Shown here in pieces: positions 10,020-13,018 of a DNA stretch of 34,264 bases (positions are counted from its first letter, which is position 1; each line of letters starts with the position of its first letter). The notes below the pieces were generated by a model, which did not search any database, was not told where the DNA came from, and saw nothing but the letters and a program-made list of their open reading frames with translations. Location: the NCBI GenBank assembly GCA_015058845.1, contig SVBO01000010.1, forward strand, positions 1 through 34,264, written 5' to 3'. The DNA comes from Erysipelotrichaceae bacterium. Its GTDB lineage: Bacteria; Bacillota_I; Bacilli_A; Erysipelotrichales; Erysipelotrichaceae. Made by a program: the position numbers and the translations under genes.

Positions 10020-10910
10020 TTAACGTACTTGACTCATTACTTCTTCAGCAAAGTTATCTTGACGCTTTTCAATACCTTCACCTACAGCATAACGAACACA
10101 TGTTACGATAGAAGCATTTGCATTCTTAACATATTGTCCAACTGTAACATCAGGATTCTTGAAGAATGGTTGATCTTCTAAGCAGATTTCCTTTAACATC
10201 TTGCTTAAACGACCTTCGATGATACCAGCTAATACCTTTTCAGGCTTGTTAGCTAATGCAGTATCGTTCTTAGCCATTTCGATTTGGATTGAACGTTCAT
10301 GTTCGATGAATTCAGCAGGAACATAAGTTCTGTTGATGAATTGAGGAGCCATAGCAGCAGCGTGCATTGAAACATCCTTAGCAACTTCATCATTGTTAGC
10401 AGAAATAACTGTTACACAGCTGATCTTTCCACCCATGTGCATGTAAGCACCGAATGATTGATCATCATTCTTAGTGAAGATTTCGAAACGACGGAATGAA
10501 ATCTTTTCACCGATTGTAGCTGTAGCATCTACTAGAATACTTTCTAATGTAGCACCAGCAGCATTTGTAGAAGCAAGAGCTTCTTCCACTGTAGCAGGCT
10601 TATTAGCTAATAATACAGTACCGATCTCAGTTAATAGATCTAAGAATTGTTGGTTCTTAGCAACGAAGTCTGTTTCAGAGTTAACTTCGAACATTACAGC
10701 AGTGTTACCTTCTACAACGATCTTAGTTAGACCTTCAGCAGCGATACGGCTAGCCTTCTTAGCAGCCTTAGCGATACCCTTTTCACGAAGCCAGTCTGTA
10801 GCAGCGTTGATATCTCCATCACATTCAGAAAGTGCCTTCTTGCAGTCCATCATTCCAGCACCAGTTTTTTCACGTAATTCTTTTACTAAACCAGCAGTAA
10901 TTGCAGCCAT
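10020..10910 (-). CDS. tsf: elongation factor Ts
   Basis: Nucleotide exchange factor that regenerates EF-Tu-GTP. It has 296 residues, the usual bacterial length. The N-terminal UBA-like domain (1-55) reads VKELREKTGAGMMDCKKAL and is followed by the EF-Tu contact motif FEVNSETDFVAKN (about 74-86). The coiled-coil/core region carries HAAAMAPQFINR. It begins 17 bases after rpsB with AGGAGG in between. Codon use resembles rpsB, and it has few GATC sites compared with the surrounding genes. Confidence 0.98.
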   Translation of the reverse strand: MAAITAGLVKELREKTGAGMMDCKKALSECDGDINAATDWLREKGIAKAAKKASRIAAEGLTKIVVEGNTAVMFEVNSETDFVAKNQQFLDLLTEIGTVLLANKPATVEEALASTNAAGATLESILVDATATIGEKISFRRFEIFTKNDDQSFGAYMHMGGKISCVTVISANNDEVAKDVSMHAAAMAPQFINRTYVPAEFIEHERSIQIEMAKNDTALANKPEKVLAGIIEGRLSKMLKEICLEDQPFFKNPDVTVGQYVKNANASIVTCVRYAVGEGIEKRQDNFAEEVMSQVR

Positions 10911-10927: not shown

Positions 10928-11863
10928 TTATTCTTGTACAGGAGCTTCTGTTGTAGCTTCTGTAGTTGTTGTTTCTGTAGTTTCCTTAGCAGGACGTGCT
11001 TGACGTTCGAAACGGTTACCACGACGTTCACCACGTTCATTGTTGTAACGAGAACGACGTTCTTCAACACGTGCACGACGACGACGTTCATTTTCAGCAG
11101 CTTGTTCTTCAACGTTTTGGATAACGTCAGCCATTGTTACTTCCTTTTCATCTTCGTCAACAACATAAGCAGCATTTAATAGACCACCCTTAGCTTCCAT
11201 GATAGCATCAGCCATTAAAGTGATGATTAACTTAACTGAACGTAAAGCATCATCATTAGCAGGGATAGCGTAATCAACTTCTTCAGGATTACAGTTAGTA
11301 TCTACGATACCGAATACAGGGATACCAAGCTTCTTAGCTTCAGCAACTGCATTGTGTTCAACCTTTGGATCAACTACGAATACAGCATCAGGGATCTTCT
11401 TCATTTCCTTGATACCACCTAAGAAGTTTTCAAGACGTGTAGCTTCCTTACGAAGTTGAGCTTGTTCTTTCTTAGGATACTTTTCCATTAATCCGCTTTC
11501 TTCCATACCTTGGATCTCGATTAAACGCTTGATACGCTTTTGGATAGTACGGAAGTTAGTTAATGTACCACCTAACCATCTTTGGTTGATGAAGAATGAA
11601 CCAGTACGAAGAGCTTCTTCCATAACAACTACTTGAGCTTGCTTCTTAGTACCTACGAATAATACCTTACCGCCCTTTTCAGCGATAGCCTTCATAGCAG
11701 CATAAGCTTCATCTAACTTTGATTGAGTCTTCTCTAAGTCAATGATGTATACACCATTGCGTGCGCAGTAGATATAAGGGCGCATCTTAGGATCCCAACG
11801 ACGTGTTTGATGACCGAAGTGAGAACCAGCTTCTAATAATTTCTTCATTGAAACAACTGACAT
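10928..11863 (-). CDS. rpsB: 30S ribosomal protein S2 with long charged C-terminal tail
   Basis: Small-subunit protein that binds S1/S21-side rRNA and is needed for initiation. The S2 core (about 1-250) is ordinary: [68 protein letters not shown]. The protein is 311 residues while most S2 are about 240-255. The extra 55-60 residues are low-complexity: first an Arg/Glu-rich block ([16 protein letters not shown]...), then a Thr/Glu/Ala tail ([14 protein letters not shown]). The first ATG is chosen; the next Met (residue 6) has no ribosome site, though the GAGG here is 12 bases away. It is preceded by a structured leader and its own promoter. Confidence 0.97.
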
Positions 11864-11977
11864 AATTTATTTTTTCCTCGCTTTCCGTTATTTCCTCCAC
11901 CACTTCAAACATCGCCAACCTTTTCAGGCACGGAAGCAATGAATTCATGGTGTGTGAAGTGCACATAAAGTGCCATC
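11864..11977 (-). promoter_or_regulatory. structured 5' leader of rpsB (putative S2 autoregulatory leader)
   Basis: About 110 bases of transcribed leader lie between the promoter and rpsB. Two complementary pairs are interleaved: GGCAC (11974-11970) with GTGCC (11931-11927), and CACTTCA (11961-11955) with TGAAGTG (11907-11901). A local hairpin GCAC-TTTAT-GTGC competes with the first pair. Ribosomal operons commonly carry autoregulatory leaders; that this one binds S2 is inference. Confidence 0.5.
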
Positions 11978-11981
11978 AAAT

Positions 11982-12010
11982 ATTTTAACAGAAAAGTACA
12001 CAAAAGACAA
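11982..12010 (-). promoter_or_regulatory. rpsB operon promoter
   Basis: The -35 TTGTCT (12010-12005), a 17-base spacer and the -10 TAAAAT (11987-11982) predict a start of transcription near 11976, at the beginning of the structured leader. Confidence 0.7.
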
Positions 12011-12081
12011 GTAAAAAATAGGAAATATGTATACTTTTTTAACACTCATGGTTTTATTACTCTCTCCTCTATAGGATAAAT

Positions 12082-12110
12082 AATAAAAAAGTGATGATCA
12101 CTCATCACTT
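12082..12110 (-). terminator. intrinsic terminator overlapping the end of xerC
   Basis: The stem AAGTGATG/CATCACTT (8 pairs) has a 6-base loop and is followed by TTTTATTATTT. The xerC stop codon lies inside the loop/stem region, so the last sense codons form the hairpin. Confidence 0.85.
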
Positions 12111-13018
12111 ACAGTTAATCTGGCTCTTGGATGTGCCTTATAATAGGCTTCTTTTAGAGTACTTGTCGTTGTATGTACATAGATCTGGGTAGTAGACAGA
12201 GAACTATGTCCCAAGAACTCTTGCACTACTCTTAGATCACATCCATGGTCTAATAAGTGTGTGGCAAAGGAATGTCTAAGGGTATGGGGATGAACTTTCA
12301 TAAGGATCCCACTTCTTCGTACCTGCTGATCTAGCAGATACTGTACCCCTCTCTCAGTCAACTGCTCACCCTTCATGTTCACGAACACAAACGAATGCTC
12401 TTGATTATTCCTATGCATCAGATCAGCTCGAACAGTCTCGATATAACACTTGATCTGTTGTCCGATCTCTTCATAGAAAGGAACGATCCTCTCTTTCTTT
12501 CCCTTACCCAGGATTCGAACATATCTTTCCACAAGATCAATATCACTAAGCTTTAACGATACGCTCTCACTCACACGAAGACCGCATGCATAGATCAACT
12601 CCAATAGCGCTCTATTACGTACACCCATTTCAGTAGAAGTATCGATCGATTGCAATAATTCCTCTACCTCTTCCTCGAACAAGAAATCTGGTAACTTACG
12701 TTTAAACTTGCCACTCTTCACTTGAATAAATGGATTACTACTGACTACCTCTTTGCTTTGAAGATATTGATAGAAAGAACGTAGAGCAGATACTTTACGT
12801 GCTATCGTTTTATTAGATAACTGCTTATTCCCCTCTGTTCTAATGAATGAGATATAAGAAAGTACGATCTGATAGGTAACTTCCTTATACTCGATATGTT
12901 CCTTTTCTAGATACTTCTCAAACTGTCTTAGATCTCTTTCATACGCTTCTTTCGTATGTTCACTTCTAGAATTCTTTTGATATGTATACTCTAAGAAACT
13001 ATCGATCCATGGGATCAT
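12098..13018 (-). CDS. xerC: tyrosine recombinase XerC (chromosome dimer resolution)
   Basis: Site-specific recombinase that, with a partner, resolves chromosome dimers at dif. It has 306 residues. The N-terminal SAM-like core-binding domain spans about 1-90. The catalytic set is complete: Arg148 (YACGLRVSE), Lys172 (LGKGKKER), His245 and Arg248 (HPHTLRHS), His271 (LGHSSLSTT) and Tyr280 (QIYVHT). The context topA-trmFO-xerC is the classic Bacillota setting of xerC/codV, which supports XerC over phage integrase. It overlaps trmFO by 4 bases (ATGA). The hslV-hslU-codY genes that usually follow are absent; a terminator and the rpsB unit come next. Confidence 0.93.

Follow-up and report, generated by a model that had tools for sequence, protein, structure and literature searches.

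The analysed window is a stretch of 34,264 nucleotides from an Erysipelotrichaceae genome. On its minus strand lies an ORF of 311 amino acids (10928–11863) which we take, from recognition of the sequence and without a family search, to encode ribosomal protein S2 (rpsB). Of 97 genomes, including that of the window, 91 hold a matching S2 frame, and the window's genome is one of these. Downstream of rpsB follows an ORF on the same strand (10020–10910) that we likewise take by recognition to be tsf, encoding elongation factor Ts, and after tsf come genes that are presumably pyrH, frr and uppS, again named by recognition of their sequences. We investigated the leader, which occupies the minus strand directly upstream of the rpsB ORF. 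The features of the leader described below lie on this strand, and positions are those of the window.

A consensus scan detected a promoter-like site at 11982–12010, consisting of TTGTCT and TAAAAT separated by 17 nt with a TG ahead of the second hexamer. From this site transcription is predicted to start near 11975. Taken alone the site is weak, since two consensus matches compare with a mean of 1.8 in shuffles, a number no better than chance. The predicted start does not fall downstream of 11930; a start there was named by an earlier sequence-only reading of the locus as an outcome that would refute its proposal. In a set of 70 leaders from the window and its relatives the best TATAAT-like box closely precedes the 5' hairpin, at a distance of a few bases; as the box was selected by script as the best one, its position carries no independent weight. 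An intrinsic-terminator-like site at 12089–12110 is situated behind the upstream recombinase gene, suggesting that rpsB has its own promoter. It is the sole such site in the region 11700–12300, and none lies between the predicted start and rpsB, which favours control of translation. Attenuation of transcription has been reported for another ribosomal leader of the Firmicutes, that of B. subtilis rplJL (PMC4538822), but with the only terminator-like site of the region (12110–12089) lying behind the upstream gene we consider it very improbable that the rpsB leader acts in this way.

The likely Shine-Dalgarno sequence is GAGG at 11876–11879, 12 nt before the ATG. Its predicted duplex with the anti-Shine-Dalgarno tail is modest at −6.9 kcal/mol (each of the two sampled families has a median of −12.2), these energies being computed with the tail sequence as we assume it to be. 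A GGAGG at 11894–11898, located at the 3' foot of helix P1, is conserved in the 70-leader alignment and also present in the t44 consensus; judged from the sequence, its distance to the start codon is too great for an ordinary Shine-Dalgarno. We also noticed a GGAAAG at 11881–11886, present at the same place in other Erysipelotrichaceae leaders, which overlaps one strand of the pseudoknot described below. As it can presumably pair with the same 16S tail, it represents a possible second point of competition.

Leaders were collected from relatives of the window. The set of 70 consists of the window and 69 relatives. It takes in every one of the 52 Erysipelotrichaceae genomes with an S2 match, that of the window among them, while a sister family contributes 18 of its 39. 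One recognisable leader was found in the rpsB upstream region in all 70 cases. The expectation of the sequence-only reading that a leader of regulatory type precedes rpsB is supported by this conservation and by its correspondence to the known rpsB motif.

The predicted RNA begins with a 5'-terminal hairpin, P0 (GCAC-UUUAU-GUGC, 11961–11973), which appears in the minimum free energy fold with pair probabilities of 0.95–0.96. A hairpin of this type, varying in sequence, is predicted in 47 of the 52 Erysipelotrichaceae leaders, window included, and in 2 of the 18 sister-family leaders; in this count one leader (L011) that gave an empty stretch was scored as having no hairpin, and the shuffles used were mononucleotide shuffles. 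Helix P1 is formed by CACCAU (11947–11952) pairing with GUGGUG (11898–11903), at pair probabilities of 0.90–0.92. In the 70 leaders 99.8% of its cells are paired and five of its six pairs show two-sided changes, one of them occurring as 39 CG, 27 UA and 2 AU, which gives direct support for the fold. P1 is followed by an internal loop with GAAUU (11942–11946) on the 5' side and UUUGAA (11904–11909) on the 3' side. In the numbering of the first alignment row A49 is invariant and G47, T50 and T51 are at least 90% conserved on the 5' side, while G87, A88 and A89 are invariant on the 3' side. These bases are conserved outside helices, suggesting a protein site, and both sides of the loop are a candidate protein contact.

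Beyond the loop, P1b pairs CAUUGC (11936–11941) with GCGAUG (11910–11915) in the window, with pair probabilities of 0.91–0.99. The count on the alignment covers five pairs of P1b, each of which shows two-sided changes, and 87.1% of their cells are paired. A gap in the alignment displaces the fifth of these pairs, which does not form in 20 of the 70 rows, including that of the window. P1 and P1b together thus show two-sided changes at 10 of 11 counted pairs. P3 is a hairpin GCCU...AGGU (11918–11929) with 97.0% of cells paired and two-sided changes at three of four pairs. In some Erysipelotrichaceae leaders (L006, L010–L016, L019) P3 is lengthened by about 15–25 nt, often with a second hairpin. 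The consensus fold shows no stem at the position of P2, between P1b and the strand of the pseudoknot.

RNAalifold applied to the 70-row alignment returned 15 pairs, 13 of them with two-sided changes. For P1, P1b, P3 and the pseudoknot combined (20 pairs), 92.1% of cells are paired, and two-sided changes occur at 15 pairs in 254 cells. The covariation of this structure is 0.478 compared to a shuffled mean of 0.169, a value reached in none of 500 shuffles, and versions slid along the alignment gave at most 0.173; some of this margin is inherent in the procedure, as the structure was derived from the same alignment. The single-sequence minimum free energy fold of the window yields P0, P1, P1b and P3, i.e. 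the same nested fold, with an overall stability that is not unusual (z −0.89).

The sequence-only reading had arrived at a different set of pairings. It described two interleaved helices, a/a' between GGCAC (11974–11970) and GTGCC (11931–11927) and b/b' between CACTTCA (11961–11955) and TGAAGTG (11907–11901), with GGTGGAGG adjoining the b' arm at 11901–11894. All four arms and the adjoining sequence are present at these places, and within the window the arms are perfectly complementary. Such an arrangement is weak structural evidence, because dinucleotide shuffling of the same 114 bases produced interleaved 7-bp and 5-bp helices, both perfect, by chance in 352 of 2000 cases. Both helices have a probability of 0.000 in the nested RNA ensemble, which leaves out pseudoknots but allows either helix alone. 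When the 12 pairs were assessed on the 70 leaders, 54.1% of the cells held standard pairs, slightly more than the shuffled mean of 52.5 (1 of 500 shuffles as high), but their covariation of 0.071 against 0.065 in shuffles (31 of 500 as high) was no better than that of a version slid by −2 columns, so that the pairings failed this test. In one relative of the same genus (L002) the b' arm reads CGAAATG and two of the seven b/b' pairs are lost. Moreover b' overlaps the 3' strand of P1, which covaries with a different partner. We therefore regard it as highly improbable that a/a' and b/b' are real helices, either as a pseudoknot or as a two-state switch. A local GCAC/GTGC hairpin (11973–11970 with 11964–11961) that had been described as competing with one arm is indeed present in the minimum free energy fold; the supposed competitor is P0, the recurrent 5' hairpin of the family.

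Instead of the pairs named earlier, a pseudoknot was found between the junction preceding P3 and the region just upstream of the Shine-Dalgarno. Its 5' strand is (U)CCGU at 11930–11934, with CCGU at 11933–11930, and its 3' strand ACGG(A) at 11884–11888, with ACGG at 11888–11885, 21 nt from the start codon. The idea of a pseudoknot close to the GGAGG stretch was thus correct, in the form of CCGU/ACGG, whereas the two mutually exclusive folds are unsupported; the earlier proposal of a pseudoknotted leader regulating S2 has the right kind of element but the wrong pairs. CCGU/ACGG occurs in 51 of the 52 Erysipelotrichaceae rows, window included, and the remaining row (L031) holds AAACGG, shifted in the alignment. 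The distance from the 3' strand to the start codon ranges between 9 and 21 nt in the 52 Erysipelotrichaceae leaders, with the window at 21 nt; in the 18 sister-family leaders it is 16–20 nt, measured from AAC. In three leaders (L019, L031, L046) the strand reads ACGGAGG and so overlaps a Shine-Dalgarno-like GGAGG.

We assessed the pseudoknot on 111 rows, consisting of the 70 leaders, 40 representatives of the class and E. coli. The innermost pair is kept in all 111 rows, as U-A in 108 and as A-U in 3, and the second pair is G-C in 110. The core is GU/AC in 107 rows and GA/UC in three, the switch from GU/AC to GA/UC being found in L250, L256 and L258, which belong to three families (f14, f20 and f22). 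Pairs three and four are present in 69 and 70 rows, compared to means of 51.2 and 44.8 after shuffling. Relatedness is not taken into account in these shuffles, and the excess at the two pairs comes mostly from one family. A fifth pair, present in 37 rows against 36.0 in shuffles, is at chance level. For the window this would be U11934-A11884, which is unsupported, with 28 UA and 2 UG among 68 counted cells, and possible in 29 of 52 Erysipelotrichaceae rows; in the 70-row count as many as 16 rows are gapped at columns of the pseudoknot.

The length of the pseudoknot differs between the families. In the Erysipelotrichaceae 22 rows have four contiguous pairs and 29 have five, so that 51 of 52 have at least four. 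Sister-family rows have two (15 rows) or three (3 rows). Among the 40 other rows of the class 26 have two, 13 have three and one, L226 of family f8, has five (CUUGU/ACAAG); counting all 58 rows of other Bacilli families, two pairs are found in 41, three in 16 and five in 1. A long pseudoknot is therefore the rule in the Erysipelotrichaceae but seldom occurs in the other sampled families of the Bacilli. Its extension varies, from CC/GG in the window's family to UU/AA in L226 and GGG/CCC in E. coli, where five pairs are formed (GGGGU/ACCCC). Being invariant in 51 of 52 rows, the CC/GG extension has no covariation of its own inside the Erysipelotrichaceae. The A-U switch, L226 and E. coli are the cleanest evidence for the pseudoknot, and the switch and L226 support its published form by compensatory change.

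In order to determine how widely the leader is distributed, a covariance model was built from the 70 leaders. The window leader scores 85.2 bits, as expected for one of the training rows. Among the 296 genomes of the class it has a match at E up to 0.1 in 155, and S2 is found in 288; since 141 genomes are missed, the leader may not be universal in the class. From the 155 matching genomes 40 were fetched, chosen by hand for spread across families. A frame with an S2-like N-terminus lies downstream of 39 of these 40 matches by a loose motif test in which TGA was read as W; the fortieth, L226, is cut before the motif and resembles its sister sequences by eye. A pattern scan of named genomes gave 112 stretches. 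Among the 80 that were listed, 59 are labelled Erysipelotrichaceae, Erysipelotrichales, Erysipelotrichia or genera thereof; of the other 21 listed, five match the covariance model (L081, L092, L133, L146, L152) and 16 do not, the latter being chance pattern matches. Inside the window the model has a second, weak match at 1802–1888 (15.1 bits, E 0.25). Two of the second matches in relatives, in G299 (E 0.0013) and G031 (E 0.0020), were considered as additional leader copies but treated as chance, since the frames downstream of the two do not look like S2.

Two observations concern the S2 proteins of these relatives. By eye, S2 appears extended by about 15–50 residues before the usual N-terminus, with an extension that is acidic in many cases, in L222–L224, L226–L229, L233, L235, L239, L240, L247 and L249 (families f8 and f19) and in L243, L244 and L248 (f16). 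In the draft relative G009 (L048 / L267) codon 8 of rpsB is an in-frame TAG, and one TAG also occurs in the topA match of this genome. We make no claim of a changed genetic code with TAG recoding in this genome, because tsf is free of TAG and several frames of the same contig seem by eye to end at TAG; the codon-8 TAG is more likely to reflect an error or a broken gene copy.

In E. coli, S2 is reported to repress rpsB-tsf through the 5' UTR that forms this leader, and to need bS1 for doing so; the mechanism of the S2 operator is called unclear there, as the operator does not include the ribosome binding site (PMC10931766). For the present leader we infer a steric mechanism. Transcription would begin just before P0, and the leader RNA would fold into P1, the conserved internal loop, P1b and P3, with the CCGU junction before P3 pairing with the ACGG just upstream of the Shine-Dalgarno. 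S2 in excess of free 16S rRNA would then bind the leader, probably at the internal loop, and stabilise the fold of P1 and the pseudoknot. The stabilised fold would block loading of the 30S subunit on the nearby Shine-Dalgarno and thereby lower the synthesis of S2 and EF-Ts.

We also searched for the partner protein. With the rpsA model TIGR00717 none of 21 genomes exceeded the cut-off, which is strict, as no more than 2 of 14 controls pass it. The genome of the window (G000, a draft, 97.1% complete) holds four matches of at most 63.3 bits, each covering about one S1 domain, whereas the sister-family relative G061 has a match over 342 positions with 247 bits. In a draft genome a multi-domain bS1 may have been missed. 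As repression in E. coli needs bS1, the protein side may differ in the present lineage. If bS1 is absent, S2 would have to repress alone or with another S1-domain protein, or else it does not repress.

According to a further explanation the leader is conserved but acts mainly as an element for translation initiation or mRNA stability, such as a structured standby site or a 5' hairpin acting against 5' decay, and does not respond to S2. The position of P0 at the predicted transcript end, the second GGAGG inside the structured part and the failure to find in the draft genome the multi-domain bS1, reported as the repression partner in E. coli, would all fit such an element. The same architecture is, however, an S2-responsive operator in E. 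coli (PMC10931766), and the conserved bases of the internal loop suggest a protein site, so that we judge an unresponsive element to be improbable, if less so than attenuation. We hold it very probable, as one joint claim, that the sequence is the S2 (uS2) leader of the Erysipelotrichaceae, belonging to the rpsB motif, and that feedback by S2 blocks translation of S2 and EF-Ts. As a tentative extension of this S2 feedback, rather doubtful at present, the Erysipelotrichaceae leader may be a self-sufficient switch in which the ACGG strand, lengthened and located near GGAGG or, in L019, L031 and L046, within it, allows S2 to mask the ribosome binding site without bS1. A lineage that shares the leader of E. 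coli but has a longer pseudoknot close to the Shine-Dalgarno, and in which a multi-domain bS1 went undetected, would be a test of repression by S2 alone and of the pseudoknot as blocking element.

Searching the window against Rfam 15 at its cut-offs reported no family. For t44 (RF00127) there was no match in the window at the gathering score of 44 bits, nor in a permissive scan of 501 bases. Flavo-1 was considered as a relative but rejected, scoring 13.7 bits (E 6.1) around the window leader and being unlisted at E up to 5 in 20 relatives. The leaders of 20 relatives gave five full-length t44 matches of 21.5–29.4 bits, all below the cut-off; two are clear (29.4 bits at E 0.0076 and 29.0 bits at E 0.01) and three weak (E 0.17 to 1.3). 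At the level of whole genomes 7 of 21 match t44 at E up to 10 and none exceeds the cut-off, the best relative reaching 29.7 bits. In five of the seven the match lies at rpsB. By themselves the weak genome matches mean little, since 6 of 14 control genomes match as well, one of them over the cut-off. In the reverse direction the model from the 70 leaders locates the rpsB leader of E. coli K-12 correctly within 221 kb (22.7 bits, E 0.0016), demonstrating homology of the two leaders. They agree in the order of their parts and in the positions of ACACAC, GUGC, GGAGG and AAC. They differ in that the window and all relatives tried stay below 44 bits and in the pseudoknot, which is GGGGU/ACCCC in E. 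coli and CCGU/ACGG here. This leaves a gap in annotation, as no Rfam 15 family reaches its threshold on the window leader although the motif was published in 2009 (PMC2704228).

Ribosomal-protein-gene leaders found by covariation have also been described by Eckert and Weinberg in 2020 (PMC7247131). Table 1 of that work names S2 as the ligand in none of its 20 rows, and its single mention of rpsB concerns an L13 leader in Bacteroidia, to which the gene may additionally belong. In the literature searched, mostly open texts, we found no prior report of an S2 leader in Erysipelotrichia, although the motif description in PMC2704228 already names some Firmicutes and its alignment may include the family.

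The comparison with known ribosomal leader models called for by the sequence-only reading led to the rpsB motif of Meyer et al. 2009 (PMC2704228), which corresponds to the present leader. The motif is described from Alpha- and most Gammaproteobacteria, a few other Proteobacteria, Cyanobacteria and some Firmicutes. As in that description, the leader lies upstream of rpsB and has a long P1, here P1 and P1b, as well as P3; P2 is absent, as it is absent or very short in Firmicutes; and the junction strand forms a pseudoknot with the 3' extension after P1. Two features differ: the Firmicutes pseudoknot is described as appearing to have only three base pairs, in comparison to four (CCGU/ACGG) here, and the recurrent P0 is unmentioned in the motif section of PMC2704228. 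The kind of leader is therefore already known, and two features may be specific to this lineage, the pseudoknot of at least four pairs and the failure to detect a multi-domain bS1 in the draft genome.
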